Shown here: positions 12,823-62,350 of the stretch, piece by piece | Layout: each line of letters opens with the position of its first letter | How positions within the stretch are numbered: the first letter of the stretch is position 1 | Source of the DNA: Kappaphycus alvarezii | Taxonomy: Eukaryota > Rhodophyta > Florideophyceae > Gigartinales > Solieriaceae | Assembly: GCA_002205965.3 (NCBI GenBank) | Contig: NADL03000657.1 | Location: 372,001 to 436,000 of the forward strand | Direction of reading: 5' to 3' | DNA: 64,000 nt | Notes under the pieces: generated by a model | The model's database searches: none | What the model was told of the DNA's origin: nothing | Seen by the model: only the letters and a program-made list of their open reading frames with translations | Made by a program: the position numbers and the translations under genes

Positions 12823-12825
12823 TTT

Positions 12826-17905: not shown

Positions 17906-18581
17906 TGATAGGGGTTAATCGTCGGAGAAGAGACACTTAAAACCAACTACCCAAGAAGGAGATGTTGCGAGCGAAAAAAGTGCAACCGTGGTATAGTTGA
18001 CTGAATAAAATTGAATGTATACGGAAGAGAGCTGAAAAGGCTACAAGCAAGTATGGAAGGGTCAGGGTCTTCCATCTATGCTCAGTGAATAGCGTAAAAT
18101 AAAAGTCTTCTTGTGTCTGAAGTTGACTCTAACCTTTCTAACTATTTTGGACTTGAGTTGAATTTGTCTGCCAACTTGCCTGAACTATCCACGAGGAAGC
18201 AGTTTAATCAGCTTATATAGACCTTTGACTACCCCTAAAGTCCGAACAAAACTACAGAAGGTACCAGGAAATGCACACAAACAATTTGTGTGGATGATGT
18301 ACTCTAGACAAAAGATACTTAAGAAACTAACAATCAATGAGGTCTCCTTATTTACCATTCTCTGAATCAGGTCCAAAAAAACTCCTCAAAGAGGTCCATG
18401 CTGTCCAAGCAGTCCCCACAAATATCCGCGAACGGCTCATAGCGCTCTATTTCCTCCTGGGAGATATCTAAACTACTAAAGATATCTCCATTCGGTTCCA
18501 AGGTCGGCACCACTTTTTCCATACTCTTCAGTCCAGGATCCACAAGTCCAACACTTTCCATGCCCCCGGTTCCCTCATCCA

Positions 18582-18615
<34 letters not shown>

Positions 18616-19434
18616 ATCTTCCTCCTCCTCGTCCTCCCCATCCTCCTCATCTTACTCATCCTCCTCATCCTCCCCGTCCTCCTCATCCTCCCGTCATTAA
18701 TCTCGTAGACCAATTCAGGGGCTACCCACTCCTCGAAGGTCTCCCAAGCTCCCTCCTCGATGTCCCACTCCCGTCCCTTACCTACCTCCTTCGCCTCATC
18801 CTCAATAAAAAGGCGACGCACGGATTCGATAACCTTCTTTTTGGTTTGCCGGCGCAGGTATTCCTCGCGATCAGTAGTCCCGAAAAGCAGTAGGGGAATA
18901 GAGTTTAGGGGGCGAGGATGGCGATTTTTGAAAACGAATTTCGAGGGCATAGATTGTTCATTTTGGTAGGCTTTGGGAAACGGGAGGCAATGAGGGTGTT
19001 TTGGGAGTGTGGTGGGAGAGGAATGATAAGTAAAATGATCAGGGACGTTTGTGACTTGGAGTAAAGGGGTTTAAATAGGCCTCCGGTGCAGGTTCTTTAT
19101 ATTAGGAATAGGTAAAATAAATATGCAAGGGATTTTGCTGTAGTGCATTTGCGCCCTTTTTCTCAAAAAAGAGAATTTGGAAGAGGAAGTAAGCGAAGAG
19201 GAAAAAAGAACTTCATTCGGGTTCGATTCAGAGGGGTAGATACAGTATAAGAATATCTAGTTAAAATGGAAGTAAATTTGGAGAGTACCGCGGTAATGAT
19301 AGGCAAGGCTAAGGGAGGAAAAGTAAGGACCGGAACTATAAGCAAATTTTGACACGGAGAGGTAGTACAGTAAACTAAAGGTCTGTAGGTGACGGCAACA
19401 AAAAAAATCCGTTCCTATTAGCACGCGCCTAACA
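17906..19434 (-). mobile_element. solo LTR (1529 bp), ORF-bearing family, subfamily B
   Basis: It is bounded by a perfect 5-bp duplication GGGAC (17901-17905 and 19435-19439). On the coding strand it starts TGTTAGGCGCGTGC and ends CCCCTATCA, a TG...CA LTR. Its 3' half closely matches the LTRs of the complete element at 52455-61434 and it carries the same internal ORF. The 5' end differs: it lacks the TGTAATACAG tandem units. No internal region remains, so it is a solo LTR formed by recombination. Confidence 0.9.
18367..18961 (-). pseudogene. LTR-encoded acidic protein, frameshifted copy
   Basis: Reading from 18950: LRRQTKKKVIESVRRLFIEDEAKEV, then TFEEWVAPELVYE, an Asp/Glu-coding microsatellite read out of frame, then (18582 to 18367) VVPTLEPNGDIFSSLDIS and PFADICGDCLDSMDLFEEFF. 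Both conserved blocks of the intact ORF at 60445 are present. The ancestral ATG (18961) is followed by a frameshift, the linker is shifted, and the end is cut at FFWT instead of LFGSD. The C-terminal block stayed nearly unchanged despite these breaks. Confidence 0.75.
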
Positions 19435-19852
19435 GGGACTCTAGCCTCCGCAATGCCTTCAAACGGACTTCACACGTCAGATCCACATTATCTACTAGAA
19501 CTCATTCGGTAATAATAAATATCTCAAGTAAGGCCATGCTCACACAATTCCTATTACTTGCCTTGGATACTGCCTTTTCTTAGCTAGAATTATCCTCATC
19601 AACACTATGTTCTTTGAACGGTCTCTTAACCTTGAGGTCAACGAGATCTTCAGCCAAAATACGCTTCAAGCTCTTGCATGTCGAACTCTTTTTCCTTGGG
19701 TATTCTTCATTAGCATTTTCCCAGACTTTGTAGCAACATGATGCTTTTCAAACGTTCCCGAGAGAAGATTAATTATTGCGGGATTCGTAAGGGTACGCAA
19801 TTTTCTAACACAGCGAAAGGTTAGGGGTTTTTTAGACAGCATAGACATTTTG
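19435..19852. other. segment between two LTR pieces, no firm gene
   Basis: A minus-strand open stretch (19902-19666) reads basic, SKKPLTFRCVRKLRTLTNP-like, and could be a fragment of a coding exon. I see no relative elsewhere in the window and do not assign it. Confidence 0.35.
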
Positions 19853-20333
19853 AAGGGGTTGTTTGGATCGGATTTAGAGAATGGTAAATAAGACGACCTC
19901 ATTGATTGTTAGTTTCTTAAGTATCTTTTGTTTAGAGTACATCATCCACACAAATTGTTTGTATTCATTTCCTGGTACCTTTTGTAGTTTTGTTCGGACT
20001 TTAGGGGTAGCCAAAAGTTTAAATAGCCTTAGTAAACTGTTTCCTCATGGAGAGGTCAAGAAGATTGGCAGATAACTTCAGGTCAAGCTCCGAGTAGTGC
20101 AAAGTTGAGAGTCAACTTCAGACCTGAGGAACATTATTCCTACGCTGGTCGCAGAGCATCAGTCGTAGAACCCACCCTTTCCATACTTGCTTGTAGCCCT
20201 CCCAACTCTCTTCCATATACACTCCTTTTTGTTCGTTCAACAATACTGCGGTAGCACTTTTGTCGCTCGCAACACCTCCTTCTCGTTGTAGTTGGTTCTG
20301 AGTATCTCTTCTCCCAACGATTTACCCATATCA
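19853..20333 (+). mobile_element. 3' LTR half, same family
   Basis: From the last codons of the LTR ORF (TTGTTTGGATCGGATTTAG at 19860) to the terminal CCCATATCA (20333) this matches the 3' part of the 1.45-kb LTRs, including the GGGGTAGCCAAAAG box and the stretch before the end (TTTGTCGCTCGCAACACCTC). The second TATA-like box is altered (TTTAAATAG). The 5' half is missing. Confidence 0.85.
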
Positions 20334-20339
20334 GGTTGT

Positions 20340-38264: not shown

Positions 38265-38707
38265 TGATAGGGGTTAGTCGGCGGGGGAAGAGATCCTCAG
38301 AACCAATTACCCTGAGAAGGAGGTGTTGCGAGAGACAAAAGTGCTACCGTGGTATTGTTGAACGAAAAAAAGGGAGTGTGTGTAGAAGAAAGTTGAAGAA
38401 GCTACAAGCAAGTATAAAAGGGGCAGGGTCTACCACCGACGATCTGAGACCAGCGTAAGAAAACGTTTTCTTGGGTCTGAAGTTGACTCTCAACTTCCTA
38501 AATATTTGGGGCTGGGCTTGAAGTGGTCTGCCAACTTGCTTGATCTCTCCATGAGGAAGCAGTTTACGCAGCTTATATAGACTTTTGGCTACCCCTAAAG
38601 TCCTAACAAAACTACAGAACGTACCAGGAAATGCACAAAAACAATCTGTTTGGATGACATACTCTAAACAAAAGATACTTCAGAAAATAACAATCCATGA
38701 GGTCCTC

Positions 38708-39227
38708 TTATTTCCCATTCTCTAAATCAGATCCAAACAACTCCTCTGAAATAACCATGCTGTCCAAGCAGTCCCCACAACTTTCTGCGAATGGCTCACA
38801 GATATCTATTCCCCTTGGGAGATATCTAGACTACTAAAGATATCTCCATCCGGTTCCATCGTGGGCACAACTTGATCCATACTCTCCATTCCAGGCCCCA
38901 CCAGTCCAACACTTTCCATGCCCCCTGTTCCCTCCTCCTCCTTCTCCTCCTCCTCCTCCTCCTGAGCCTCGTACACTAGCTCAGGGGCTAACCATTCCTC
39001 GAAGGACTCCCGCTCTCCTCCTCGACCTTCTCAGCCTCTCCCTCACTTACCTCCCTCGCTTCTTCTTCTATGAAGAGGCGGCGAACAAACTCGATGATTT
39101 GTTTCTTTGTTTGCCGCCAGATGTAGTCGTCTGCAGCGGTTGGCCCGTAGGCGGCGAGACGAAGGCCATTGATGGGACGGGAAGGGCGGTCTTTGGAAAT
39201 AGGGACAGAGGGGCGAAGGTTGTTCAT
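38708..39227 (-). pseudogene. LTR-encoded acidic protein, frameshifted copy
   Basis: It starts at the same ATG as the intact copy: MNNLRPSVPISKDRPSRPIN, then DDYIWRQTKKQIIEFVRRLFIEEEAREV, a frameshift in the EESFEEW block, an acidic Glu microsatellite, and a terminal part reading QVVPTMEPDGDIFSSLDIS and LFGSDLENGK with one stop in between. The AGGTAAGT at the EAREV codons is conserved. A TATA-like ATTTAAA lies about 110 bases upstream. Confidence 0.8.
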
Positions 39228-39598
39228 TTTGATAGACTTTGGGGAACGGGAGGCAATGTAGGGTGTTTTGGGTGTGTGGGGGGAGAGGTTTGATGAGTAA
39301 AATGATCAGGGGCATTTGGAACTTAGAATAAAGGGGTTTAAATATGCTCCCGGGGCAGGTTCTATAGATTAGGAATAGGTAAAATAAATCTGCAAGGGAT
39401 TTTTCAGTAGTGCATTTGCGCCCTTCTTCTCAAAAAAGGCGAATTTGGAGGAGGAGGTAAGCTAAAAGGGAAAAGGGACTTGATTCGGGGTCGATTCAGA
39501 TGGTTAAATACAGTATAAAAATATCTAGATAAAATGGAAGTAAATTTGGAAATGACGGTGGGAGAAGCTAGGGGCGAGATCGTTGTAGGTTGCTGGAT

Positions 39599-39686
39599 TA
39601 CACGAAGGGAGGACCATTTCTTGTATTACATGAAGGGAGGACCATTCCCTGTATTACATGAAGGAAGGACCATTTCCTGTATTACA
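39599..39686 (-). repeat. 27-bp tandem repeats at the LTR 5' end
   Basis: Three units of a TGTATTACATGAAGGGAGGACCATTTCC-type repeat lie at the LTR start. The same unit occurs at the beginning of both LTRs of the complete element. It may be a protein-binding array in U3. Confidence 0.75.
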
Positions 39687-41998: not shown

Positions 41999-43507
41999 AG
42001 ATGGAAGTAAATCGTCGGGAAGAGAGATATTCAGAACCAAATACCCCAAGAAGGAGGTATTGCAAGCGACAAAGGTGCTACCGTGGTACAGTTGAACGAA
42101 CAAAAATTAGTGTATATGGAAGAAAGTTGAGAGAGATACAAGCAAGGATGGAAGGTGCAGTGTCTACCACTGATGATCCACGAACAGCGTGGAAAAATTT
42201 TTCTAGGGTCTAGAGTCGACTCTTAACTTCCTACTACTTGGGACTTGACTTGAAGTTGTCTATCAACTTGGTTAATCTCTCCATGCGGAAGCAGTTTACT
42301 CAGCTTCTATAGACTTTTGGCTACCCCTAAAGTCCGAAGGAAAATAAAAACGATACAAGAAAATGCATAAAAACAATTTTTGTGGACGATGAACTTAAAA
42401 AAAGGATACCTAAGAAACTAGAAATCAATGAGGTCCTCTCATTTCTTATTCTCTAAATCAGATCCAAACAACTCCTCCAAAATATCCTCGCTGCCCAAGC
42501 AGTCCACAAATATATCTGCGAACGGCTCATAGCTCTCTATTTCCCCCTGGGACATATACGAACTACTAAAGATATCTCCATCCTGTTCTAGCGACAACAT
42601 CACATGTTCCATACTCTTCAGTTCAGGCCCCACAAACTCCAAAAATTTCCATGTCCCCTTTTCCCTCATCAACCTCGTCCTCGTCCTCATCATTCTACTT
42701 GTCCTCCTCTTTTTCCTCTTCCTTCTTCTCCTCCTGTTCCTCCTGTTTCTCCTCTTCATCCTCCGTGTAATTAACCTCGTAGACTTATTCAGGAGCTACC
42801 CACTCCTCGAACGTCTCCCCAGTTCCTTCTTCGATGTCCCCTACCACCCCTTACATATGTCCTCCGCGTCATCCCCAATAAAAAGGCGACGCACTAATTC
42901 GATCAACTTCTTTCTGTTTTTTCTGCGCAAGTAGTCATCACGGTCAGTAGGTCCGAATAGGAGTAAGGGAATAGAGTTTAGGGGGCGAAGATGGCATTTT
43001 TTGGAAATGACTTTGAAGGGGAATAGATTTTTCGTTTTGGTAGGTTTTGGGGAATGAGAGGCAATAGATTGTGCTTTGGGTGTGTGGGGGGAGAGAATTG
43101 ATGAGCAAAATGATCCGGGACATTTGGAACTTGGAATAAAGGGGGTAAAATAGGCTCCTTAGGAAGGTTCTATAGATTATAAATGGGTAAAATAAATTTG
43201 CAAGGGATTCTGTAGTAGTACACTTACGCTATTTTTCTGAAAAAAGCGAATTTGGAGAAGCACGTAAGCAAAAATGGGAAAAGAACTTGATTCGGGATCG
43301 ATTCAGAGGGGTAGATACAGGATGAAAATATCTAGATAAAATGGAATTAAATTTGGAGGGGACCGCGGTAATGATAAGCAATGCTCTGGGAGGACGAGGA
43401 AGGACCGGAACTATAAGCAATTTTGGACAATAGGAGGTAGTGCAGTGAAACAAATATTTGTAGATGACAGCGACAAAAAATCCGCTCCTATCAGCACGCG
43501 CCTAACA
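41999..43507 (-). mobile_element. solo LTR (1509 bp), subfamily B
   Basis: It is flanked by the perfect 5-bp duplication GAATC (41994-41998 and 43508-43512). The coding-strand start is TGTTAGGCGCGTGCTGATAG; the end has CT in place of the usual CA. It aligns with the 17906-19434 LTR over its whole length. It contains ORF remnants and a damaged second TATA box (TATAGAAG). Confidence 0.9.
42439..43035 (-). pseudogene. LTR-encoded acidic protein, degraded copy
   Basis: The ancestral ATG is ACG (43035-43033). Fragments read GPTDRDDYLRRKNRKKLIELV and RRLFIGDD, then a shifted linker read as Arg/Lys repeats, then DGDIFSSSYMSQGEIESYEPFADIF and ILEELFGSDLENKK. The C-terminal block is preserved while the middle is broken. 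Confidence 0.7.
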
Positions 43508-48813: not shown

Positions 48814-49090
48814 CTCTCGAGCGTAACCTTTCCCACTTTTGAATGTGTTACTTGGTCTTAATCTTCGCTGTTATAACTTGAAGTGATATCGTCCTGGTCG
48901 TTTTCCAGTAAATCTTCCGGGGATGTGCTTTTGTAGAATTCCAAGAAATTTTCACGGTTCTGCTATCTATTTGAACTGAAACGCTTTGGTTGCCCAAGCC
49001 AATGCACGTACCTAGTCTTATCATGACAGGGCAACCAGGAAAAGAAATTCTACATCAATTTTAGAGTCCTCAAAGATCACTCAAATCTTG

Positions 49091-49306
49091 TCAACATTGA
49101 TTATAATTTTTGGTACGGTTCCATCGGCAACAGTTATTCATCGAGTAGTTAGAATAATTTCGAGACCTACATCCATCACCAAAGTTTCTCAATTGAGGTC
49201 TAGAACAGCGCCCGGGTTGAAAAGTGATTTTTTTCATTCTGGCTGTAACTTTGACTGGTACCAGCTTAAGACGTCTTGGTTTTGTCGAGGCTGATTGAAG
49301 AAACAA
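49091..49306 (-). pseudogene. protease (minus copy) with Asn at the active site
   Basis: STKPRRLKLVPVKVTARMKK leads into a frame reading LFNPGAV, where the catalytic D-S/T-G is N-P-G (codon at 49218-49216). The same Asn is found in the complete element. Afterwards the reading is frameshifted. Confidence 0.7.
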
Positions 49307-50289
49307 TTTCTTACCCTTAGCAGACTTTTATAGTTTATCTTTTTTTTCGAGTTCTTTTCTCGCATCCTCTCCGTCGCCCCTCAAAGCTGACCAAATATCA
49401 TTCTAGTTGAGGCCAATATAAGCTCACCTACCAAATTGTACTTCTTCACATACTCTAGTAAGTCGTTCGCGATAGTCATGAATTCCTTATTCTTTTCACT
49501 TTTCTTGGCCAAAGTGGTTCCCACTCCTGGAACAACTTGGTCAAACAGTCATTCTTATCCACTGTCAAAACATTGACATACTTATAAAGAGACTCTTCCA
49601 CGTCCTCACCCCGGCTACTCTTGAACTGAAAGTAAGATGTGATGGTGTCTATCATTCGAAAGCTATTATGGTGACTTAAAAAGCCCTCTACCTTGCAAAA
49701 AACGCTTAATATCGTTGTATAGGTGCAATAATCCTCGACAAAAATACCAAATGATAGGTTCGAGATGGACCCGAATGAAAACGGAGCAATAACTACCGGA
49801 AGTGAGAGTCGTTGCGAGCAACTAAAGTGATTACGCAGAAGTTAACCGGTGGTGGAGATGAGTGGACGTGAACGCTGAGTGATTGCTGTAGTAGCCAACA
49901 CTAAAGGGGTAGGTTATACCACCTGTTCTCCACCACTGGCGAAAAAAGGTTCTTCAATCTTAAGTTAAATATCGACCTTCCAACTATTTGAGACTGAATC
50001 TGACGTTGTCTTCCAACTTCTTTTATACTTTATGTTGTGTGTGATTTAGTTTGGAAGGCGTCCCACTAGGTCTTGCTGGTCCCGAAGCGCTCCTAAAATT
50101 TCCCTCGTACCCCTCCCTCTGTACCGTTCCGAACTGCCGAAATTTGTTGCACCTGCGCAGTACCTTTGGCGGCTCTGCATGGCGACAGAGCAATGCAAAG
50201 CATCCCTCTAAGCATAATAGGAAATCAAATTTGCATTCCAGTGCCAGCACAGCCAGCGCAGCAAGCTAAAATAGGGAAGATTTAGATGT

Positions 50290-50869: not shown

Positions 50870-51910
50870 CTTCCCTACATCTTTCCCAGGACTGCCACTG
50901 GGAAGAGATCCCTCGGTCCGCCATCTTGCTCTTATCCTCCCGCCACCCGCAGCTGTCTTCGTTGCTTACAGCTACCTCTTTTCGAGCGTTGATCATCGCT
51001 GGTCTCCGGCGAAATGCTCCAGTCTGCTATCACAACTGAACTAATGCTATCGAAGTCCGATAGGTTGTTCTCGTCCACGGCAGCCCACGACCGAGCACGG
51101 CTCCTCTCCGTGCGAATATCCTCCGCCTCGTCTGTTTTCTCTTCGCTTCCTCACCCCCACCGCAGTACGTACATGTCCTTTTCTACGTGGAAAGTCGCTC
51201 TGGCTCTACGTCTCGGCATCGCGCTATTCCCTCGATATACTTGCTGTCCGGTCTGTTCCCGGCACTTGGCCGACATCGCACCCGTCTTAGGTCCAAGTGG
51301 TCAACACGCGTTGACCTGCAAATACGAAGACAAAATGACTCGTTGTCATCACATTCTCCGCAACGTTCTTGCCCTCTACTGCAAGTAACTTGGCATCGTC
51401 GCCCTTGTCGAACATCCGCTCCTCTACCAGTTTTTCAACTCATCTGAGCATTCGGAGTCCCCGTGATACGAATGGACATTTACATACCCGCTGCATACGG
51501 GCTTCACAGTACCGATATCGCCGTCGACGTTACTGTTGCACACCCCTCCGCACGCCACCACATTTCGCCAAGTGCGATTACTGCAGGCGCGTCCGCAACA
51601 CTCGCAGAGCGCTAATAACATTATTATTACGGCACTTACTGCAACCAAAACGATATACTCCTCTCCCCGCCGGGATTGATATCTATGGCACCTTGGGCGA
51701 CGACGGTAAGGGGTTTTCCCGCCGTTTTGCTTCCTTCGCTGCTTCCCGTCGCGGTTCCTCCCCTCAGCAGGAGCTCCGCGACTTCGCTAACCGTTTTGCA
51801 TATAGTCTCCAAGTAATGCAGGTGCGACAAGTTTCTACCCGCCGCCTGCATCCGTAGTTAATTTATGAATACCCTCCGCACGCCTCTGTGCGACATTGTA
51901 GGACCATAAA
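50870..51910 (+). pseudogene. F1 retroelement C-terminal region, best copy
   Basis: In order: HDRARLLSVRISSASSVFSS, WKVALALRLGIALFPRY, CPVC with HALTCKY (zinc motif), RCHHILRNVLALYC, EHPLL, then a frame change and DIYIPAAYGLHSTDIAVDVTV, AGASATLAER, IDIYGTLGDDGKGFSRRFA, ELRDFANRFAYSLQVMQ. It ends near 51859; the 3' tail continues to about 51910. A RT polymerase core is absent upstream, where a head-to-head F2 fragment begins. One stop and two frame changes break it. Confidence 0.7.
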
Positions 51911-51949: not shown

Positions 51950-52454
51950 TAACCCATTCACATTCATATCTGAGTGTTACGTTGGATGCATGTTGTGAGA
52001 AACGCCACCGCATCAACTAGCTGGATCCAAAATCTAAACTCTCAGAACCGGCCTTAGGTCATCCAAGGATATTGCCGCAGCCGCCTTCTTCGCCCCTAGG
52101 TATCAAACGAGAACTTTAGTGTGCGATGCCCGCCGTCTCTAGTGACCTACTTGGCTACTTACGCAGATGCCAAGACGGCATTCACCCAATGGAGATCATC
52201 TTCCAGACCTGTTCACAGTCTTCCCATCGAACCTTTTTGCTCTAACGCCCCATCACAAAAATCTTTGAAAATTTAGTTCGCACCGTAGGGTACCAATAGC
52301 TTGCCTTGAGTAGTCGCTGCCCCTAGGCCTTCAGGGACTCAATGAATTTTCCGGGAACCAAGGAATGGGTCCGTTGTCCTCCCACCGCAGGATCGAAGAC
52401 CATGTCTAGCACCGGAAATTTCTCAGCATGCTACATGTAATTCCTTCAGGCCCT
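51950..52454 (+). pseudogene. F2 retroelement, upstream half, interrupted by the complete element
   Basis: The plus strand reads GLRSSKDIAAAAFFAP and later NFPGTKEWVRCPPTAGSKTM, STGNFSACYM, matching the F2 order (compare AKKIAVAAFLASR and PPGSQEM at 46.1-46.4 kb). The frame runs into the target duplication GCCCT and resumes after the element at 61435. There are stops near 52130 and 52434. Confidence 0.6.
52450..52454. repeat. target-site duplication, left copy
   Basis: GCCCT immediately precedes the left LTR and is repeated at 61435-61439 directly after the right LTR. Confidence 0.9.
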
Positions 52455-52912
52455 TGTGATATAAAAAATAGTCCTCCCCTCATGTAATACAGAAAATGGT
52501 CCTCCCTTCGTGTAATACAGGAATTGGTTCTCCCTTTGTGTAATCCAGCAATCTACAACGGTCCCGCCCCTAGCTTCTCCCACTGTCCTTTCCAAAATTA
52601 CTTCCATTTTATCTAGATAGTTTTATACTGTGTTGGACGCTCTGAATCGACCCCGAATCAAGTTCATTTTCCCTTTTAGCTTACCTTCTCCTCCAAATTC
52701 GCCTTTTTTGAGAAGGAGGGCGCAAATGCACTACTGCAAAATACCGTGCAGATTTTTTTTTCGTATCCCTGATCTATAGAACCTGCCCCGGGAGCCTATT
52801 TAAACCCCTTTATTCCAAGTTCCAAATGTCCCCGATCATTTTACTCATCATCCCTCTTCCCCACACACTCAAAACACCCTACATTGCCTCCTATTCCCCA
52901 ACGTCTGTCAAA

Positions 52913-53460
52913 ATGAACAACCTTCGCCCCTCCGCCCCCATCACCAAAAAACGCCCCTCTCGCCCCATCAATGGCCTCCGTCTCGCCGCCGACGGGCCAA
53001 CCAATGCCGACGACTACATTCGGCGGCAAACAAAGAAGCTAATCATCGAGTTCGTTCGCCGCCTCTTCATAGAAGAAGAGGCGAGGGAGGTAAGTGAGGA
53101 TGAGGCTGCAAAATTCGCGGAGGAGAGCGGGGAGTCCTTCGAGGAATGGGCAGCCCCGGAGTTGGTCTACGAGGTTAAGGACGAAGAGGGGAAAAGGAGG
53201 ATCAGGATGGGGTCGATGAGGACGACGATGAGGACGACGCTGATGAGTCACAGGAAGGTATGGGAAGGGTTGGAATGGGGGAATGTATGGATCAAGTTGT
53301 GCCGACGATTGAACCAGATGGAGATATCTTTAGTAGTCTAGATATCTCCCACGGGGGAATAGAGAGCTGTCAGCCATTCGCAGATATTTGTGGGGACTGC
53401 TTGGACAGCATGGATATTTTTGAGGAGTTGTTTGGATCTGATTTAGAGAATGGAAAATAA
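52913..53460 (+). pseudogene. LTR-encoded acidic protein, copy in the 5' LTR, one-base deletion
   Basis: It is identical in sense to the intact copy at 60445, except that one G is missing in the G-run at about 53187-53191. The first frame therefore runs on as KRRIRMGSMRTTMRT to 53341, and the C-terminal block (QVVPTIEPDGDIFSSLDIS ... LFGSDLENGK) is in another frame from 53260 to 53460. An upstream in-frame ATG exists at 52826, but the ATG at 52913 (CAAAATGAA) is the one shared with the solo LTRs. Confidence 0.85.
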
Positions 53461-53588
53461 GAGGACCAAATTGATTGTTAGTTTCTTAAGTATCTTTTGC
53501 TTAGAGTATATTGTCCACACAAAGTATTTTTATGCATTTCCTGGTATCTTCTGTAGTTTTGTTCTGACTTTAGGGGTAGCCAAACGTC

Positions 53589-53596
53589 TATATAAG
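53589..53596 (+). promoter_or_regulatory. second TATA-like box in the 5' LTR
   Basis: TATATAAG lies downstream of the LTR ORF stop and about 310 bp before the LTR end, following a conserved GGGGTAGCCAAA box. The box is kept in the LTRs at 17.9 and 38.3 kb and is damaged in the 42-kb LTR. It is a good candidate for the promoter of the genomic RNA (inference). Confidence 0.5.
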
Positions 53597-53903
53597 CTGA
53601 GTAAACTGCTTCCTCATGGAGAGATCAAGCAAGTTGGCAGACAACTTCAATTCAGGTCCGGAGTAGTAGGAAGTTGAGAGTCAATTTCAGACACAAAAAG
53701 AATTTTTTTTACGCTAGTCACTGAGCATAGGTGGTAGACCCTGCCCCTTTCTTACTTGCTTGTAGCCCTTTCAAATATCTTCCATATACACTCCATTTTA
53801 TTCCTTCAAATATACCACGGTAGAACTTTTGTCGCTCGCAACACCTCCTTCTTGGGGTAGTTGTTTCTAAGTATCTCTTCTTCCGACGATTTACCCCTAT
53901 CAT

Positions 53904-53922
53904 TTGGTATTCTTGTGGAGGG
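53904..53922 (+). other. primer-binding site
   Basis: TTGGTATTCTTGTGGAGG begins one base after the LTR's terminal CA. It contains the expected TGG complementary to a tRNA CCA end. The minus-strand copy at 46-50 kb has the nearly identical TTTGGTATTTTTGTCGAGG at the same place, which supports the assignment. I cannot name the tRNA. Confidence 0.7.
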
Positions 53923-53991
53923 GGTTGTACTCGAGGTATTCGAGGTGAGCTTTACTGAGGAACACTTCGGCGAGATTTCTTTTCTGTAATC

Positions 53992-54873
53992 ATGGATTTT
54001 AACGCTGCTCGTATATCGTTCACAGGGGGCAAGGGTGAAGACGTTGAGGAGTTTCTCTATGCATATGTCAACGTTGTGATGCGTGAGAAGAGCGATGAAG
54101 AGAAGGCCGCAAGTATCTTTGCTTATCTTCATTGTGACGCAATGCACATATATAAGGCTAAGTTTATCGACGGGTGGTCTCTTAACGGTAATGGGCGTAA
54201 CTTCGGTAAGGTATGTGAGTGGCTGGCGAAAGAATATGCGAAGGAGGTAGAACCAGATGAGATGATTCGTACTGCCATAGAGGCCCGGCTCAACTTCGAT
54301 GATTTGTTAAGCTTATTGGTATATTTGTGTGATCTTTATGAAAAGGCCGGGTTTAACGCCCAAGCCAAGTACGGAATGCTGCGTAAGGCGGCTATGGGGG
54401 ATAAGCGGCTCTCCAATTTCCTTCTCATCAAGTGCCCTCACACTTTTAATGAACTAAAGGAGACCATGGTAGAATATGTCAAAAATTCGGAGACGTTTCA
54501 GTCACTGAGTGAGGCACCGAGGGAAAACCGTACATCGATCTCCATCGTACATCCTGAGAAGAATTATCAAAGGCCGGCTACTAGTGCAGTGGCATTAGAA
54601 TCTGTCAGAAGCGATGTCAAAAACTTGGAAAAACGGTTGGAAACCCCATTCGATAATCAACCTGACATGATAACCTCGCAGTTGGAAAGCCTTACTCTTA
54701 CCATTAAGAAGAACCAGTCTGGGGCCCTAAGGTCACAGAGGTCTGCTCCTACTGTCACAAGCCTGGACACTTTGCAAATAGGTGTCCTCATAATCCACAT
54801 AGAAATACTTGTTGTGGAAAGTGCGGACGATACGGGCATCATGAAAGTAACTGCTGCTCTAAAGAAAACATAA
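53992..54873 (+). CDS. gag: Gag (matrix/capsid part)
   Basis: This is a 293-codon frame starting MDFNAARISFTGGKGEDVEE, 90 bases after the LTR. The minus copy has the related start FQFKSSRGEDVEESLYKYVNV. Helix-rich capsid-like sequence follows (EWLAKEYAKEVEPDEMI, YEKAGFNAQAKYGML). The last 40 codons are out of frame relative to the zinc knuckles, which are read in another frame from about 54744, so the true Gag requires a frame change near 54735. Gag assembles the particle in the cytoplasm and packages RNA. It is the best preserved internal gene. Confidence 0.8.
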   Translation: MDFNAARISFTGGKGEDVEEFLYAYVNVVMREKSDEEKAASIFAYLHCDAMHIYKAKFIDGWSLNGNGRNFGKVCEWLAKEYAKEVEPDEMIRTAIEARLNFDDLLSLLVYLCDLYEKAGFNAQAKYGMLRKAAMGDKRLSNFLLIKCPHTFNELKETMVEYVKNSETFQSLSEAPRENRTSISIVHPEKNYQRPATSAVALESVRSDVKNLEKRLETPFDNQPDMITSQLESLTLTIKKNQSGALRSQRSAPTVTSLDTLQIGVLIIHIEILVVESADDTGIMKVTAALKKT

Positions 54874-54926
54874 GAGCAAATTTATCGGATGCGAGGAGTG
54901 AGTCAGGGCCGGAGATGAAAATCTAA
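54744..54926 (+). pseudogene. gag: Gag nucleocapsid with two CCHC zinc knuckles, shifted frame
   Basis: In the frame of 54744 the reading is CSYCHKPGHFANRC followed by CGKCGRYGHHESNC, two perfect C-x2-C-x4-H-x4-C knuckles; all eight ligands are present. This frame is shifted from the gag frame and ends at TAA 54924-54926. The knuckles bind genomic RNA. Either an indel mutation or a programmed shift separates them from the capsid; without other intact copies I favour an indel. Confidence 0.8.
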
Positions 54927-54947
54927 CAAAATAGAAGGGATCAAAAG

Positions 54948-55223
54948 TTGACGTATGGCGGTAACGTATCCATCGCTGAAGAAATTAGTCAAGTCAATGT
55001 GACAAAAAGGGATGGGGAAGGGAACATTTTATCGAAGAAACCTAGGCTAGATTATGGAACACTGGAGCATATCCCAGCACTTGTACCTCCTCGAACCAAG
55101 AGGCCTGATCAAGTTGTTCAAGGGGTGGAAGTCACTCCGGCCAAAAGAAGAAAAAGAGTAAGAAAGTTAAGAGTATCCGAAGGACGTACTAGAGTATGTG
55201 AAGAAGTACAGTCTGGTAGCTGA
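54948..55223 (+). pseudogene. Gag-protease spacer
   Basis: It is a basic 91-codon stretch: RTKRPDQVVQGVEVTPAKRR. The minus copy has QVVPGVGTTLAKK at the same place, in another frame that goes on LLEYVKKYNLVGELI. Around 55175-55225 the present copy is frameshifted. No function is recognised. Confidence 0.55.
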
Positions 55224-55263
55224 GCTTTAATCAGCCCCAACGGGGATAACGTTTGGTCAACTT

Positions 55264-55659
55264 TTGAGGGGCGACGCAGAGGATGCGAGAAAAGAACTCA
55301 AAAAAATTATCAGGTCTAATAAGTACGCTAAGGGTAAGAATCTGTTTCTTCATTCGGCCTCGACAGCACCAAGACGTCTTAAGCTGGTACCAGTCAAAGT
55401 ATTGGGTATGAAAACCCAAGCTCTCTTCAATTCAGGTGCTGTTCCAAACCTCATTTCAGAAACTTTGGTGACAGATCTAGGTCTCGAAATTACTCCAACG
55501 ACTCGAAAAATAACTGTAGCGGATGGAACCGTCTCAAAATGCATGGGCACTGTTGACAAGGTTTCCGTGTTCTTTGGGGACTCTAAAATTGATGTAGACT
55601 TTCTTGTCATGCCTGATCTCCCTTTTGATGCACTCATTGGCTGCCCTACCATGGAATGA
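55264..55659 (+). pseudogene. pol: retropepsin-like protease with Asn at the catalytic Asp
   Basis: The domain reads ALFNSGAVPNLISETLVTDLGL, ITVADGTVSKCMGTVDKVSV, VDFLVMPDLPFDALIGCPTME. This is the fold signature of Ty3/gypsy proteases (DSGA ... ILG), but the active-site codon at 55429-55431 is AAT (Asn) instead of GAT/GAC. The second copy in this window also has Asn. A TGA at 55657-55659 interrupts the frame right after PTME; the same frame then continues (LGTCIDLGNEMVSVNIDG). Confidence 0.8.
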
Positions 55660-55677
55660 CTAGGGACATGCATTGAC

Positions 55678-56051
55678 TTGGGCAATGAAATGGTTTCAGT
55701 TAATATTGACGGCAGAACCGTGAAGATGCCACTGAATTTCGACAAAAGCACGCATCCTGAAGATTTAAAAGAAACAGACAGTGAATATTTCACTTCTAGC
55801 TATGAGAAAGAAGATTCGGAACCAACTAATACTTTCGGAAATGGAAAAGGGTACGCTCGGGGGTAATGAACATGGCATGGGACGATTATGATTCTGGGTT
55901 TGAAAGAGATGACGACTGGAATTCTAGGATAAGTTTGAAACCTGAATGTGTTTCTTTTTGCGACGATATCGAACCAAAGGACAGAATTCGGAGCATGAAA
56001 GAAGATTACCTTTGCAAAGAAAATAATAATGTGTCCAATTCCATATATTAA
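55678..56051 (+). pseudogene. acidic spacer between protease and RT
   Basis: Two frames: EMVSVNIDGRTVKMPLNF (to 55866) and NMAWDDYDSGFERDDDWNSRISLKPECVSFCDD (55866-56051). Parallel sequences exist in the minus copy (48547-48813). It is rich in Asp/Glu, Ser and Trp; I recognise no domain. Confidence 0.6.
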
Positions 56052-56149
56052 GATGTGAGCTCGACGGAAGAGGTCTTTCAAAATATTGAGGTTGAGGATC
56101 AAGAAGAAAAAGGGCGCCAAATGGCAGAAATCAAGGAAAAGTGCAGCAC

Positions 56150-57108
56150 CTTCCCGTCCCGCCTCAATGAAAATATCTGACATGTTAACATCTTCCGAAG
56201 TAATAGCATGAAGCGTTTCAGATTTAAGACAAGCAAGTTTACCGGTTACTCACTCGTTCGAACTTACCGACACTCAACCGATTTACCACAAGCCTAGACG
56301 TCAACCGCTAAAATATGACCAATATATCTCAGAAAATGTTACGAGTATGCTGAAAAATGATATTATTCGGCCAGTTTCATCCCCATGGTCGTTTCTAGTT
56401 GTGATCGCACCAAAGAAGGATGGAAAGATGCGTTTTTGCGTCAATTACCGACAACTGAACCAGAAAATGATACCCGATTGATTTCCGATTCCCAACATGG
56501 AGGAGATCCTCGAGGACCTGAAGGATGGGAGATATTTCACCTCAATTGACCTCTACACTGGATATTGGTAGATTCCATTGGATGAAAAATGTAAGGAAAA
56601 AACAACCTTAACCAGCAAAGCTGGTACGTTCAGGTTCGAAGTGATGCCTTTTGCTCTCATGAATGCAACAGCTACATTCCAAAGAATGATGAACGAGGTT
56701 TTGAAAGGACTTCCATTCGCAAGAGTCTATATCGATGATGTCGTCATATTCTCAGAAACGTTGGATCAGCACTTCTCGCACGTCAAGACAGTTGTGGAGA
56801 GGATATCGGAGTATAGCTTGAAAATTAAGTTGAGCAAATGCTTCTTTGCGAAAACTTCTATCCAATTACTCGGTCATATCGTCGACCAAGAGGGAATTAG
56901 AGTGGATCCAGAGAAAACGGAAAAAAATAAAGTTGGCACCAAGGCCCGCTTCAAAGACGGAGGTCCAAAGCTTCTTAGGACTGGCCTTATATTACAGAAG
57001 ATTTATCAAAGATTTCGCAAAGACTACAGCACCGTTACATGCCGGCACTACGAAGAACGGAAAAATTTACTGGAACAAGTAAATGGAAACTGCATTTCAG
57101 GAGCTTAA
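56150..57108 (+). pseudogene. pol: Ty3/gypsy reverse transcriptase
   Basis: The reading starts THSFELTDTQPIYHKPRRQP, then SSPWSFLVVIAPKKDGKMRFCVNYRQLN, FTSIDLYTGYW, MPFALMNATATFQRMM and VYIDDVVIFSETLDQH. The catalytic YIDD is at 56728-56739. TGA at about 56479 and TAG at about 56570 (where GYWQIP is expected) interrupt it, and near 56930 the frame shifts (thumb continues as SKTEVQSFLGLALYYRRFIKDF in 56846-57082). RT copies the RNA genome in the particle. Confidence 0.85.
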
Positions 57109-58054
57109 AGGTAAGCTATGTGTTCCCCCAGTGCTCATGTATCCGGATTTCAGGACACCATTTGTTGTGGAAACAGATGCCTCAGAACGGTCTTTGGGTG
57201 CCGTTTTGTCCCAAAAATATCAAAACGGAAGACTACATCCTGTTCAATTCGCAAGTCGAGCTCTATATGATGCGGAAAAGAGATACTCAGTCTGCGAGAA
57301 AGAAGCTCTAGCTGTCGTCTTCGCGCTGAAAAAGTTTCGCTTGTACCTTTTATCACTCGAGAAATTTGTCTTCATAACTGATCACCAGGCACTTAAGACA
57401 GCATTCCAAAAGAAGGATGTCCATCACCGCTTGGCCCGATGGCTCGACATTTGCGCAGAATATCGGTTTAAAATTGTGTACAGACCCGGAAGCAATAATC
57501 AGCCTGCCGATTACCTATCCCGCTTGAGGGACGCACTGATCCCAAATGAAAAAGCTTCCGAGGACATCGTTGGAGTCGCTGAGGTGCAGTTGCCGAACGA
57601 TAACGAGTACGAAGCTCATATTCACGGACTGATCAAATTCCTCGATGGACTAGAAATGAGAAAGGTTGATCTTGAACACAGAAATTGGGTACGCAGGAAT
57701 CAAAAGGCTTTTTCATTGTGGAATGGGAAACTCTTCCGGCACACTAAAGCCGGTCCCCGACTAGTGACCCCTTTGAAAGAAAGAATGAAGATCTTGAGGA
57801 CTTTCCATGATGAGCTAGGGCATTGGGATCTCGAAACAACCAAAGCATTCGTAACTGAGAGATTCTGGTGGCCCGGTATCCTTAAGGACGTCTATAACTT
57901 CGTGAAAAGCTGCGACAACTGCCAAAAATTCACTCCAATACGGAAGTATAAGACAACTCTAAGTTTTCCAGTTTTTGGTCTCTTTGAAACTTCTCAATTT
58001 ACTTTGCAGGCCCACTCAAGGAACCTTCTTCCGGGAATAAATATCTCCTTATAG
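57083..58054 (+). CDS. pol: RNase H and integrase N-terminal domain
   Basis: This is an open frame of 323 codons. RNase H: VETDASERSLGAVLSQ, EKEALAVVFALKKF, FITDHQALK (Asp, Glu, Asp catalytic series), then the tether YRPGSNNQPADYLSR. Integrase zinc domain: FHDELGHWDLETTKAFVTERFWWPGI and SCDNCQKFTP, a complete HHCC set. Near 57975 the reading leaves the expected frame; the integrase core continues in the frame of 58057. RNase H removes the RNA strand, and the HHCC domain helps integrase bind the ends. Confidence 0.85.
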   Translation: METAFQELKGKLCVPPVLMYPDFRTPFVVETDASERSLGAVLSQKYQNGRLHPVQFASRALYDAEKRYSVCEKEALAVVFALKKFRLYLLSLEKFVFITDHQALKTAFQKKDVHHRLARWLDICAEYRFKIVYRPGSNNQPADYLSRLRDALIPNEKASEDIVGVAEVQLPNDNEYEAHIHGLIKFLDGLEMRKVDLEHRNWVRRNQKAFSLWNGKLFRHTKAGPRLVTPLKERMKILRTFHDELGHWDLETTKAFVTERFWWPGILKDVYNFVKSCDNCQKFTPIRKYKTTLSFPVFGLFETSQFTLQAHSRNLLPGINISL

Positions 58055-58964
58055 GGGTGGAACATCTTACTGAATGGCCAAAAGCCGTTGCAGTTGAGGA
58101 GGCAAATGCTGAGGTGGTACCAAGTTTCATCGAAAAAGAAATAATTGAACCGTTTGGTCTTCCAAAAAGGATCATCTCGGATAACGCCCTTTGTTTTACT
58201 GCAACTTCACTGCTTCGTTGTTTTAAAAAGAGAAAGGGATTCAGCTGAAGACCGTTCTCGCATACGCTCCTATGTCCAACGGGAAAGTGGAGAGGATGGT
58301 TGGAAACATCAAACGAGCAATATCGAAAACTATGTCGGAGAATGAAATCCAGTGGAGAAATGCCTTACCAAAAGTGTTATATGGCTCTCGTCAAAGGAGA
58401 GGAAGAAATGGACGCTCAGCATTCGAGCTAATGTACAGAAGGGCTCCTAGAATGTTACAGAGGGACATGGAAACAAATATTATCGATGAAGAGAGTAGTG
58501 AAGTTGAACTACTGGCCACCGAAGGCTGGAGATCACACCGCGCGCTAACACAGACAAGAAGTAAGGATGCAGAATCTGCAGTCAGAACCTTTTCATTTGG
58601 CTCTAAAGTACTTGTAGTACATGGAAAAGCAATGCAACAGGCTGTGAAGTGGCCAGCTTTCCAAACCAAGTACTCGAACCCTTGCATCGTCAAGGAAGAA
58701 AGACACCCGCACTATCAGCTCTGTTCAAGCTCAGGGAAGAGATCAAGGAGGGCCATCCATGCACGTCGTCTGGTCCCTTATCATCAGAGGCCGGAAAAAT
58801 TCCTTCTCACACAGGACTATGCGCAACCACGGGGCATACTCATCTTTAACTATAGAATGATCCCTATGGGAGGAAAAAGGGCCTGGGAATGGATCATCTC
58901 GGTTACGCGGGACTACTACGAACTCCACGTAATCATCCATTTCTACATTAATATATGCCTATGA
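57975..58964 (+). pseudogene. pol: integrase core and C-terminal module, first Asp lost
   Basis: In the frame after 57988 the text FSIYFAGPLKE has Tyr (codon 58000-58002) where the first catalytic Asp is expected. The second Asp is in RIISDNALCF (58180-58182). The Glu is in NGKVERMVGNIKRAI (58290-58292) after a frameshift near 58245. The C-terminal part with SKVLVVHGKA, IHARRLVPYH resembles the GPY/F module. The frame from 58272 runs through to a TGA at 58962-58964 and, in the same frame, into the accessory domain. Confidence 0.8.
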
Positions 58965-59324
58965 TTTCGTACGTTGAACGGACCGTTGCTACCTGAAGAA
59001 GATTTCCGACTATTAATAAGAGTTCTATTTTCATTCCAAAACGGAAGATTCACGGAAGCAGGTCCAGACTTTGTGGAGGTAATATATAATTACTCTATAG
59101 GAAGATATGGAATGGTGGCTGCCGGAGACTTGTCGCAAACGTATCTGAATATTATCCATCCAATTTACGTGTTTCTCAAGAACAACCAAGATGTGCGACT
59201 GAGAGGTTACGCCTTACCCCGGATATGGAATACAAACTGGTCCCGTATCCTCTATGGGGACCTTACGTTTCTCCGCCACAAATTGGGAACGTTGGAGGCG
59301 GCGAGGATCCTCCTGCAGCAGTGA
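58872..59324 (+). pseudogene. accessory domain 1, fused to the integrase C-terminus
   Basis: It begins within the last codons of the integrase frame (AWEWIISVTRDYYELHVI, FYINICL), continues after a single in-frame TGA (58962-58964) as FRTLNGPLLPEEDFRLLIRVL, FVEVIYNYSIGRYGMV and LNIIHPIYVFLKN. A shift near 59222 would then give EYKLVPYPLWGPY. Each block has its counterpart in domain 2 and in the 23.7-kb copy. There is no chromodomain here, so the domain takes the position where integration-targeting modules usually sit (inference). The fold is unknown. Confidence 0.7.
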
Positions 59325-59952
59325 TGATGACCAGAGGAGGACCATCGGGAGACAACAACCCGCCCAGAAGAGGTTCCGGTCGTCCCCGAGAGGACCTCGT
59401 GCAGGTCCCAGTACGTCAGGAGCTGGTCGCGGCCATTCATCGGGACCATCCAGCACAACTTCATCTCTAGCTCTCCTTCACAACCATGCACAGCATACAG
59501 TCGGAAGAAGAAGATTATCTTTTTGGCTGCGCAATATCTCCGAGGACACGAACGATGCGCAGGTCATTTCTTATTTCATGATAAGCATCTGTTTATGTTT
59601 TGGGGCGCTACATGGACCGCACTTATCTTACGAATATTCGTTCTTGATGATGCGCGTCTTCTTTTCTTATCGGCATCCATTCCTCCGGCATCTTCCAGAA
59701 GAGTTTGCATATCACATATATTTTTTCACTCTTGGAAGATTCGAAAGAGTCACGGAAGAAGAATGTATTCAACCCCACCTCGATGTTATCAAACCAATAT
59801 ATGAAGCTATTCTACAAAGTGAGGTACCAGTAATGCGAAAATACTTTTCAGAGCATCATATTGGTAATCAGTTGCATACGTACCCGTTTGAGAGACCATA
59901 CATTTTATCAATAAGACAGCGAACACTAACGGAAACAGAAGAAGAGCAGTGA
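59254..59952 (+). CDS. accessory domain 2 with basic linker
   Basis: This is a 232-codon frame. Residues 1-80 are an Arg/Ser/Gln/Gly-rich linker (RRTIGRQQPAQKRFRSSPRG). Residues about 83-225 form the domain: RRRLSFWLRNISEDTNDAQV, CLCFGALHGPHL, HLPEEFAYHIYFFTLGRF, IKPIYEAILQ, HHIGNQLHTYP. It stops 33 bases before the 3' LTR. It aligns with domain 1 and with 23721-24295. An env-like role is unlikely: I see no signal peptide and no clear membrane anchor, although the middle is hydrophobic. I do not recognise a known family. Confidence 0.7.
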   Translation: MGTLRFSATNWERWRRRGSSCSSDDDQRRTIGRQQPAQKRFRSSPRGPRAGPSTSGAGRGHSSGPSSTTSSLALLHNHAQHTVGRRRLSFWLRNISEDTNDAQVISYFMISICLCFGALHGPHLSYEYSFLMMRVFFSYRHPFLRHLPEEFAYHIYFFTLGRFERVTEEECIQPHLDVIKPIYEAILQSEVPVMRKYFSEHHIGNQLHTYPFERPYILSIRQRTLTETEEEQ

Positions 59953-59967
59953 CGGCCCGGGTCGTTC

Positions 59968-59985
59968 GACTTGAGAAAGGGCGCA
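59968..59985 (+). other. polypurine tract before the 3' LTR
   Basis: GACTTGAGAAAGGGCGCA directly precedes the LTR start at 59986. The purine run GAGAAAGGG is short but placed correctly. The 24.3-kb fragment has GAGGGAGAGGG at the same place. Confidence 0.6.
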
Positions 59986-60328
59986 TGTAATACAAAAAAA
60001 TGGTCCTCCCCTCATGTAATACAGAAAATGGTCCTCCCTTCGTGTAATACAGGAATTGGTTCTCCCTTTGTGTAATCCAGCAATCTACAACGGTCCCGCC
60101 CCTAGCTTCTCCCACTGTCCTTTCCAAAATTACTTCCATTTTATCTAGATAGTTTTATACTGTGTTGGGCGCTCTGAATCGACCCCGAATCAAGTTCATT
60201 TTCCCTTTTAGCTTACCTTCTCCTCCAAATTCGCCTTTTTTGAGAAGGAGGGCGCAAATGCACCACTGCAAAATACCGTGCAGATTTTTTTTTCGTATCC
60301 CTGATCTATAGAACCTGCCCCGGGAGCC

Positions 60329-60336
60329 TATTTAAA
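60329..60336 (+). promoter_or_regulatory. first TATA-like box, upstream of the LTR ORF
   Basis: TATTTAAA lies 109 bases before the ATG of the LTR ORF, in a context (GGGAGCCTATTTAAACCCC) kept in the solo LTRs at 39.35 kb and, slightly changed, at 19.07 kb. It would drive an mRNA starting inside the LTR (inference). Confidence 0.5.
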
Positions 60337-60444
60337 CCCCTTTATTCCAAGTTCCAAATGTCCCCGATCATTTTACTCATCATCCCTCTTCCCCACACAC
60401 TCAAAACACCCTACATTGCCTCCTATTCCCCAACGTCTGTCAAA

Positions 60445-60993
60445 ATGAACAACCTTCGCCCCTCCGCCCCCATCACCAAAAAACGCCCCTCTCGCCCCAT
60501 CAATGGCCTCCGTCTCGCCGCCGACGGGCCAACCAATGCCGACGACTACATTCGGCGGCAAACAAAGAAGCTAATCATCGAGTTCGTTCGCCGCCTCTTC
60601 ATAGAAGAAGAGGCGAGGGAGGTAAGTGAGGATGAGGCTGCAAAATTCGCGGAGGAGAGCGGGGAGTCCTTCGAGGAATGGGCAGCCCCGGAGTTGGTCT
60701 ACGAGGTTAAGGACGAAGAGGGGGAAAAGGAGGATCAGGATGGGGTCGATGAGGACGACGATGAGGACGACGCTGATGAGTCACAGGAAGGTATGGGAAG
60801 GGTTGGAATGGGGGAATGTATGGATCAAGTTGTGCCGACGATTGAACCAGATGGAGATATCTTTAGTAGTCTAGATATCTCCCACGGGGGAATAGAGAGC
60901 TGTCAGCCATTCGCAGATATTTGTGGGGACTGCTTGGACAGCATGGATATTTTTGAGGAGTTGTTTGGATCTGATTTAGAGAATGGAAAATAA
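60445..60993 (+). CDS. LTR-encoded acidic protein, intact copy
   Basis: It encodes 182 residues. The N-terminus is basic and Pro-rich (MNNLRPSAPITKKRPSRPIN). Block 1 at about 35-85 is DDYIRRQTKKLIIEFVRRLF, IEEEAREV, ESFEEWAAPELVYE, probably helical. Then comes an Asp/Glu linker of variable length, and block 2 at about 140-182: DGDIFSSLDIS, PFADICGDCLDSMDIFEELF, GSDLENGK. I know no family like it. The ATG chosen is shared with the solo LTRs (39227, and 18961 as a relic). Blocks 1 and 2 persist in every copy. The acidic-hydrophobic end resembles transcription activation segments, so a self-regulator is possible but unproven. Confidence 0.75.
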   Translation: MNNLRPSAPITKKRPSRPINGLRLAADGPTNADDYIRRQTKKLIIEFVRRLFIEEEAREVSEDEAAKFAEESGESFEEWAAPELVYEVKDEEGEKEDQDGVDEDDDEDDADESQEGMGRVGMGECMDQVVPTIEPDGDIFSSLDISHGGIESCQPFADICGDCLDSMDIFEELFGSDLENGK

Positions 60994-61434
60994 GAGGACC
61001 AAATTGATTGTTAGTTTCTTAAGTATCTTTTGCTTAGAGTATATTGTCCACACAAAGTATTTTTATGCATTTCCTGGTATCTTCTGTAGTTTTGTTCGGA
61101 CTTTAGGGTAGCCAAACGTCTATATAAGCTGAGTAAACTGCTTCCTCATGGAGAGATCAAGCAAGTTGGCAGACAACTTCAATTCAGGTCCGGAGTAGTA
61201 GGAAGTTGAGAGTCAATTTCAGACACAAAAAGAATTTTTTTTACGCTAGTCACTGAGCATAGGTGGTAGACCCTGCCCCTTTCTTACTTGCTTGTAGCCC
61301 TTTCAACTATCTTCCATATACACTCCATTTTATTCCTTCAAATATACCACGGTAGAACTTTTGTCGCTCGCAACACCTCTTTCTTGGGGTAGTTGTTTCT
61401 AAGTATCTCTTCTCCCGACGATTTATCCCTATCA

Positions 61435-61439
61435 GCCCT
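61435..61439. repeat. target-site duplication, right copy
   Basis: GCCCT immediately follows the right LTR and equals 52450-52454. Confidence 0.9.
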
Positions 61440-62350
61440 ATTGCTTGAACGGGCATCTCTATGCAGAGGAGCTAGGTGTCCGGAAACCTTGCGCATCTAC
61501 GGCGGTCACTTCATCTATTTCAGATATGGCCCTCAGCGAATTGACCGCCGCGACAACCAAGTCACTTTCTGGATATTGACCTCACCCTAAACGCAAGTTA
61601 TCCCGCTACGGAACCTCGGTTGCACGGGGAACACAAGAACAGCCATTGTCATCGACTACTTCGATTTCACTTTCGTGGGCTCACTGAATATTTCTCATCT
61701 CAAAATGAAAACTTTCAATCCATTCACAAGCATTAACGCAGCCCACGGGGAGAAGCCACGAAAAAACGGATCAACCGACATTATCGCCAAGCCAACCTTC
61801 TCACAAGAAAGCTTTGCAGGAGATGCTCGTCATCCTGACGTACAGCCGCGCCATGGCCCTCACCGCACATGGCCGGACATTTAAGCATTAGAAAGCAACG
61901 GAGGGACCGATTTTTTGACATTCGGAAATCATCTCGCTCCCGAAACAAAGGAGAGCTTGGGCCTTCAACCCGATGTCCTCTCTGAATGCGGCGCGAAATG
62001 CGAGTTAGAGAAGATATCAATCTTTTATCGCGACTTCCACCAGAGGTAGGCTCGTGTCTTCGCCAATCTCATCTCTTGAAGGTTGGCACCGATTGCATGC
62101 GCGGCGCTCAATGAAGTGGTAAGGAAAGTGGCCGTTGGCAATAGAGACATATGAAAAGGGGAAACGTTTGGGGTTTTTTTCCTTGAAGGTATATCCGATT
62201 TATCCCATGGTTTTCCAGACAACCACAATCGACTCAAAAAGGGTATACCGACCCCGTAATGGGGAAGGAACTACGCTCCCTAAAATGCTACCTTCAGGCC
62301 AGCCATCAAGCAGGCCGCATTGGACATGACGGCTGCTGCAGCTATGAAAA
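61440..62350 (+). pseudogene. F2 retroelement, downstream half (continues from 52454)
   Basis: The frame resumes as LLLERASLCRGARCPETLRIYGGH-type sequence (zinc/His segment), then VIDYFDFTFVGSLN, TFNPFTSINAAHGEK and DARHPD, followed by a second partial copy (AFNPMSSLNAARN near 61950, LVSSPISSLEGWH near 62050). The tail at 62165-62265 matches 50290-50385, and 62281-62340 reads back into the AAAAVMSNAACLMAGL segment in reverse sense. The organisation is rearranged; I read it as two F2 pieces. Confidence 0.6.
62165..62265 (+). repeat. F2 tail repeat
   Basis: It includes ATATCCGATTTATCCCATGG, CCAGACAACCACAATCGACT and GGGTATACCGACCCCGTAAT. Related copies lie at 17050, 41672, 44712 (reverse), 50290 and, in part, 62520-62595 (reverse). 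It is probably the shared 3' end of an element family. Confidence 0.7.

Follow-up and report, generated by a model that had tools for sequence, protein, structure and literature searches.

A selected protein gene inside the long terminal repeats of a red algal Ty3/gypsy family, tentatively read as an activator of the element's own promoter

Long terminal repeats (LTRs) are usually treated as non-coding, and the elements that bear them normally keep only control signals there. Mouse mammary tumour virus (MMTV) carries a superantigen gene, sag, in the U3 of its LTR, and its product Sag is a membrane superantigen of a mammalian retrovirus. Retroviral transactivators have been described as well, namely Tas/Bel1 of foamy viruses and Tax of HTLV. 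The HTLV LTRs also bear repeated response elements. The genes for Tas/Bel1 and Tax are not known to be borne complete in each LTR.

For the rice elements Retrosat2, RIRE3 and RIRE8, an ORF0 was described upstream of the gag-pol ORF (PMC3485330). In Podospora anserina, the element crapaud forms LTR subfamilies whose divergence is localised in their 5′ halves and was credited to gene conversion or ectopic recombination (PMC10787394). No Ty3/gypsy LTR with an internal protein gene was found among the titles and first parts of abstracts listed from the open-access literature, which is no proof of absence.

In the window (the whole stretch of DNA that was analyzed, 64 kb in length), an ORF of 182 codons was identified within the LTRs of a Ty3/gypsy element of a red alga (Table 1). 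Like MMTV sag, it is a protein gene in the U3 part and is thus found in both LTRs. It differs in its carrier, a Ty3/gypsy element instead of a mammalian retrovirus, in its acidic product, which has no detectable relation to Sag, and in the TATA-like box that stands directly before the ORF in most of the LTRs examined. MMTV sag is a known precedent for position only; to this extent the comparison drawn in the first-pass annotation holds, and nothing links the LTR protein to Sag.

The likeness to Tas/Bel1 and Tax lies in the proposed mode of a self-encoded LTR activator, which is here suggested by composition; unlike their genes, the LTR ORF lies wholly within the LTR. By its description, ORF0 is comparable as an extra ORF of elements with long LTRs that evolves faster than the retrotransposase ORF, whereas the passages on ORF0 state no placement in the LTR (PMC3485330). 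The diverging 5′ half of the crapaud LTRs is similar to the changing 5′ modules of the seaweed LTRs, whereas the legend gives gag- and pol-type ORFs and the accompanying passages name no LTR ORF (PMC10787394).

Table 1. Positions of the LTR copies in the window and of the features within the 3′ LTR of the carrier element.
Feature	Positions	Strand	Remarks
Solo LTR	17906..19434	-	broken ORF copy of class II; flanking duplication GTCCC
3′ part of an LTR	19832..20333	+	only the ORF end present
LTR without matching flanks	38265..39686	-	class I ORF copy (broken)
Solo LTR	41999..43507	-	broken ORF copy of class II; flanking duplication GATTC
Target-site duplication, left copy	52450..52454	.	GCCCT
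5′ LTR	52455..53902	+	1448 bp, TG...CA; frameshifted ORF copy
3′ LTR	59986..61434	+	1449 bp, TG...CA; ORF copy open
28-bp direct repeats, LTR 5′ end	59986..60098	+	unit matches at 60015 and 60043, diverged units on either side
TATA-like box	60329..60336	+	TATTTAAA, ~116 bp before the ORF
LTR ORF	60445..60993	+	182 aa, ATG to TAA
Block 1	60541..60711	+	DDYIRRQTKK...FEEW.APELVYE
Acidic tract	60712..60828	+	variable in length
Block 2, acidic-hydrophobic C-terminus	60829..60990	+	GDIFSSLDIS...FADICGDCLDSMD.FEELFGSD
Second TATA-like box, candidate genomic-RNA promoter	61121..61128	+	TATATAAG, ~130 bp after the ORF
Target-site duplication, right copy	61435..61439	.	GCCCT

The carrier at 52455-61434 has paired LTRs with ~99% identity to each other and a 5-bp target-site duplication, as found for LTR retrotransposons, and the order protease, reverse transcriptase (RT), RNase H and integrase after gag is that of Ty3/gypsy. 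The protease (55231-55656), the RT, the RNase H and the integrase zinc-binding domain all exceed the Pfam cut-offs. For the zinc knuckle of gag at 54708-54923 and for the core of the integrase at 58227-58961, the Pfam matches stay below the cut-offs. The gag-like ORF begins at 53992, and a candidate primer-binding site (TGGTATTCTTGTGGAG) is located at 53905-53920, just past the 5′ LTR. Despite the high LTR identity, the internal reading frames are interrupted. The closest named relative of a pol segment comes from Chondrus crispus, a red alga (49% identity over 98%), and the top match overall, at 57% over 86%, was an unnamed environmental protein. Together with phycobilisome-domain matches in the assembly (see below), this points to a red algal host.

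Most structural claims of the first-pass annotation could be reproduced: the Ty3/gypsy carrier, the 182-codon ORF in near-identical LTRs, its two conserved blocks, and the recognisable copy in the 5′ LTR, in which the loss of 1 bp from the acidic stretch shifts the frame. The three LTRs starting at 17906, 38265 and 41999, all of them described as solo LTRs, are real, and two are solo according to their duplications, but the flanks of 38265-39686 do not match. Their ORF copies are all broken by frameshifts and/or stops. The earlier list was incomplete, since the partial LTR at 19832-20333 was missing from it.

Degraded internal sequence from a related element was identified at 46828-49655 on the minus strand, the main part of which is ~75% identical to 55106-57843. 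The LTR at 41999-43507 was considered as the terminal LTR of this decayed element and rejected, as its own duplication marks it as a solo LTR.

The searched assembly (336,021,096 bp in 884 contigs) holds at least 194 matches to the LTR ORF, with 150 scored of 9917 first-look candidates. Two sets of loci were analyzed. The ORF-selected set comprises 30 loci fetched by protein similarity, 22 of which have no internal stop. For the R/U5-selected set, the best 30 of 40 scored loci (3893 first-look candidates) were chosen by their R/U5 DNA in order to avoid the selection bias of protein similarity; it includes the two LTRs of the window element itself, one of them open.

Recognisable pieces of the ORF were found in 28 of the 30 R/U5-selected loci, the exceptions being L042 and L069. 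The ORF is open from ATG to stop in nine loci and not open in 21. Eight of the open loci are members of a single young subfamily, the 16 loci of which are 98.5-99.9% identical in pairs, and the ninth is the window's own. A long open frame with a displaced start was also found in L044. Net out-of-frame indels in these 30 loci were located in the acidic tract (14), in the N-terminus and block 1 (7) and in block 2 (5). Judged by these frames, the full protein could not be produced from most copies, unless assembly errors account for some of the frameshifts. In L070, a young copy, a pair of 1481-bp LTRs differs by one mismatch and five gap positions, and the ORF is open in both.

Selection on the reading frame was analyzed by a pairwise pN/pS test on four window copies, in which the near-identical 5′ LTR was omitted and 600 random placements of the changes were used. 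For the whole ORF in the annotated frame, pN/pS was found to be 0.37-0.52, compared to 0.73-0.83 for randomly placed changes (p 0.002-0.005 in five of six pairs, 0.05 in the sixth). The other two frames were not low (0.87-1.63). Block 1 alone reached p ≤0.01 in five of the six pairs, and block 2 alone p <0.05 in only two. In the flanks, no comparable pattern was seen apart from marginal values, e.g., p 0.038 for downstream phase 2 in the pair solo17-solo42.

A neutral ratio over many copies had been named in the first-pass annotation as one sign of a chance ORF. This was addressed by a codon model on 33 LTRs, i.e., the 30 R/U5-selected loci and three further window copies, using one tree from the LTR alignment. 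In frame 0, omega was 0.375 for the N-terminus and block 1 (lnL -2007.46 vs. -2033.32 at omega 1; 2 delta lnL 51.7) and 0.472 for block 2 (lnL -880.58 vs. -886.28; 2 delta lnL 11.4), so that the ORF withstood this test. A faster run gave similar values (0.40 and 0.49). The off-frame controls gave 1.08 and 1.72 (2 delta lnL 12.5 for the latter) for block 1 and 1.21 and 0.94 for block 2, the upstream non-coding control 0.81-1.00, and the R/U5 control 0.94, 0.64 and 0.93. R/U5 phase 1 is an exception among the controls (omega 0.635, 2 delta lnL 8.2), without explanation. Since dead copies are included, the estimate is expected to be conservative for active elements.

The low omega of block 1 in frame 0 is due to the differences between the two ORF classes, which often encode the same residues by different synonymous codons. 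The residues RRLFI, for example, are kept in nearly all of the 33 copies, and four of their five codons differ synonymously between the classes. The DNA of block 2 is about as conserved as the flanking LTR. For 21 distinct ORF-selected copies without internal stop, omega was 0.336 (block 1), 0.254 (block 2) and 0.316 (both), values that are biased low as these copies were chosen by protein similarity.

The LTR ORF is conserved as a protein across many copies and is under selection; it is not a chance ORF. The claim of a genuine coding gene inside an LTR stands with regard to selection on the frame, with the restriction that many copies are broken.

The ORF is located entirely within the LTR, upstream of R/U5, where the start of R was placed according to the second TATA-like box. 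A second in-frame ATG upstream, at 60358, would extend the protein to 211 aa. The net charge is +6 for residues 1-24, -17 for residues 89-127 and -12 for residues 128-182. A helix was predicted with low confidence over residues 31-68 in block 1. The structure model has a mean pLDDT of 49.7 and no confident fold, and its helices serve as a hint only.

By its charge pattern and its mixture of acidic with hydrophobic residues, block 2 resembles acidic activation domains. Ten hydrophobic residues with acidic neighbours were counted in residues 128-182, compared to a mean of 6.4 in 5000 shuffles (fraction at or above the count 0.048), which is weak support for a putative activation domain. The layout of the protein agrees with the regulator tentatively proposed in the first-pass annotation. 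A GTAAGT motif is present in the ORF. An intron was considered and rejected, and splicing is not needed, since the protein similarity continues across GTAAGT in both ORF classes.

At 60853-60882, block 2 also contains a perfect inverted repeat with arms of 9 bp (GGAGATATC and GATATCTCC) separated by 12 bases, which is exact in 20/30 and 19/30 of the fetched LTR loci. This repeat may serve as a binding site or may simply follow from the coding sequence.

No match of the LTR protein near the cut-off and no recognised DNA-binding domain could be found in Pfam, and NCBIfam and IMG/VR gave no match. Among the PDB sequences no match was obtained either (best E 0.37; E ≥0.1 with a profile of block 1). 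A single-sequence search of 5.8 billion proteins yielded no match among 408 candidates. One match was found by the profile search, the 65-aa metagenome protein P0058, which aligns to block 2 (E 2e-18). In the same searches (Pfam, the 408 candidates and the profile, which returned P0058 alone), no relation to Sag was detected. Nine stretches that a word-based DNA search found in prokaryote genomes were taken as chance matches, and Rfam gave nothing within 59900-61500. The gene family is nearly missing from the searched protein databases, with one 65-aa relative, despite its many copies in the genome.

The first TATA-like box, TATTTAAA, is present within 200 bp upstream of the ORF in 26 of the 30 ORF-selected loci and upstream in 27 of the 30 R/U5-selected loci. 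The second box, TATATAAG, was identified downstream in 26 and 29 loci, respectively. An ATG stands at the start of the match in 25 of the 30 ORF-selected loci, all of them with an A at position -3.

The sequence further upstream is of different types. Copies of the ORF-selected set contain 0-5 matches to the 28-bp repeat, and at least one match is present in 26/30 of these loci vs. 2/30 of the R/U5-selected loci, 26 of which have a repeat-free 5′ end. A further upstream type was found in L026, in which the similarity to other copies starts ~28 bp before the ORF and TATTTAAA is located at nearly the same distance from the ORF as elsewhere.

Class I ORFs were found behind all three upstream types. 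In the R/U5-selected set, 16 of 18 class I ORFs stand behind the repeat-free, class II-type 5′ end and two behind the 28-bp repeats; all nine class II ORFs stand behind the repeat-free type. The 16 loci form the one young subfamily and thus represent few independent events. L018 and L034 likewise have a class I ORF behind a repeat-free 5′ end. The ORF persists while the upstream sequence changes its type, and these combinations suggest that the ORF and the control region upstream of it are exchanged independently of each other, although few separate exchange events were seen.

The window copies had suggested a co-variation of the LTR 5′ end with the 5′ half of the ORF, as for a protein and its binding sites. 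This idea was refuted by the larger sets, in which class I ORFs occur with the repeat-free 5′ end as well, and was dropped. A role of the 28-bp repeats as the cognate site of the LTR protein is not supported in the 30 R/U5-selected loci.

The most economical reading is that the LTR comprises a transcription unit for the LTR protein and, downstream of it, the promoter of the genomic RNA. With regard to the function, the reading tentatively favored, at somewhat less than an even chance, is that the LTR protein activates the promoter of its own element, because block 2 resembles acidic activation domains. Each LTR of the family would then be a small gene and a terminal repeat at once. The upstream box TATTTAAA would drive a short mRNA that encodes the LTR protein wherever the copy in an LTR is open, solo LTRs included, and the downstream box TATATAAG would drive the genomic RNA. 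The protein may enter the nucleus by its basic N-terminus and bind DNA or a host partner by the helical block 1, and the acidic tract together with the acidic-hydrophobic C-terminus would form an activation domain that raises transcription from the LTRs of its own family. The LTR population would thereby supply positive feedback in trans.

Other nuclear roles fit nearly as well. The product of the selected gene may not be an activator and may instead act on chromatin or against silencing as an acidic, histone-binding protein, or in the export of RNA, in packaging or in the import of the element's DNA into the nucleus, which is a serious possibility. The same selection evidence applies to these roles, histone-binding proteins often contain long acidic tracts, and the Pfam search recognised no DNA-binding domain; the hydrophobic residues interspersed with acidic ones in block 2, as in activation domains, argue weakly for the activator instead.

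It is rather improbable that the genomic RNA starts at TATTTAAA and that the ORF is the first cistron of a full-length RNA with an extended R-U5/leader. Both promoters are defined by sequence motifs only, which leaves room for this arrangement, but a long ORF ahead of gag, here of 182 codons, would hinder scanning to gag, and the second TATA-like box, nearer to the primer-binding site, is kept in 26/30 and 29/30 loci. A chance ORF, in which conserved regulatory LTR DNA with a repetitive acidic-coding stretch stayed open, would agree with the 21 R/U5-selected loci that are not open and with the conservation of the block 2 DNA at the level of its flanks, but it is largely refuted, and very improbable, given the frame-specific low omega in 33 LTRs (other frames and upstream non-coding sequence ≥0.81), the frame-specific pN/pS in the window pairs and the 22/30 ORF-selected copies without internal stop.

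If the LTR protein activates its own family, solo LTRs would keep supplying the activator to the family after the loss of the element. Where a high-copy LTR contains a protein gene under selection, solo LTRs become possible sources of a regulator for all relatives, beyond leftover promoters. The LTR ORF also offers a concrete test of whether non-retroviral retrotransposons encode their own transcription factors. A wider and less probable extension would be that the LTR has become a mobile, self-contained regulatory gene, a unit of 1.45 kb that combines the promoter and the activator ORF with the target promoter; solo LTRs and insertions would supply the activator family-wide, and the ORF and upstream modules would be exchanged separately between LTR types.

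Some further features were observed in the carrier and in the window. The pol apparently runs ~250 aa beyond the integrase to the 3′ LTR (58965-59952, plus strand). This extension has no Pfam match and consists of two similar units, as judged by eye. In L070 (5169-6932), the integrase C-terminus and the extension form a single open frame of 588 aa, and a related stretch is located at 23725-24250 of the window. Weak matches to an integrase core and a Tf2-type SH3 domain, both below the Pfam cut-offs, were found at 12403-13506 (minus strand), which is probably a second, degraded gypsy-type pol.

An inverted pair of ~970 bp with 86% identity is located at 20339-21310 and 50933-51900, and one copy begins a few bases past the LTR fragment 19832-20333. 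A fragment of a piggyBac-type transposase (DDE_Tnp_1_7) was found at 35031-35570 on the minus strand. The assembly further contains three phycobilisome-domain matches above the Pfam cut-off, two of which are on LTR-bearing contigs (C74 and C669).
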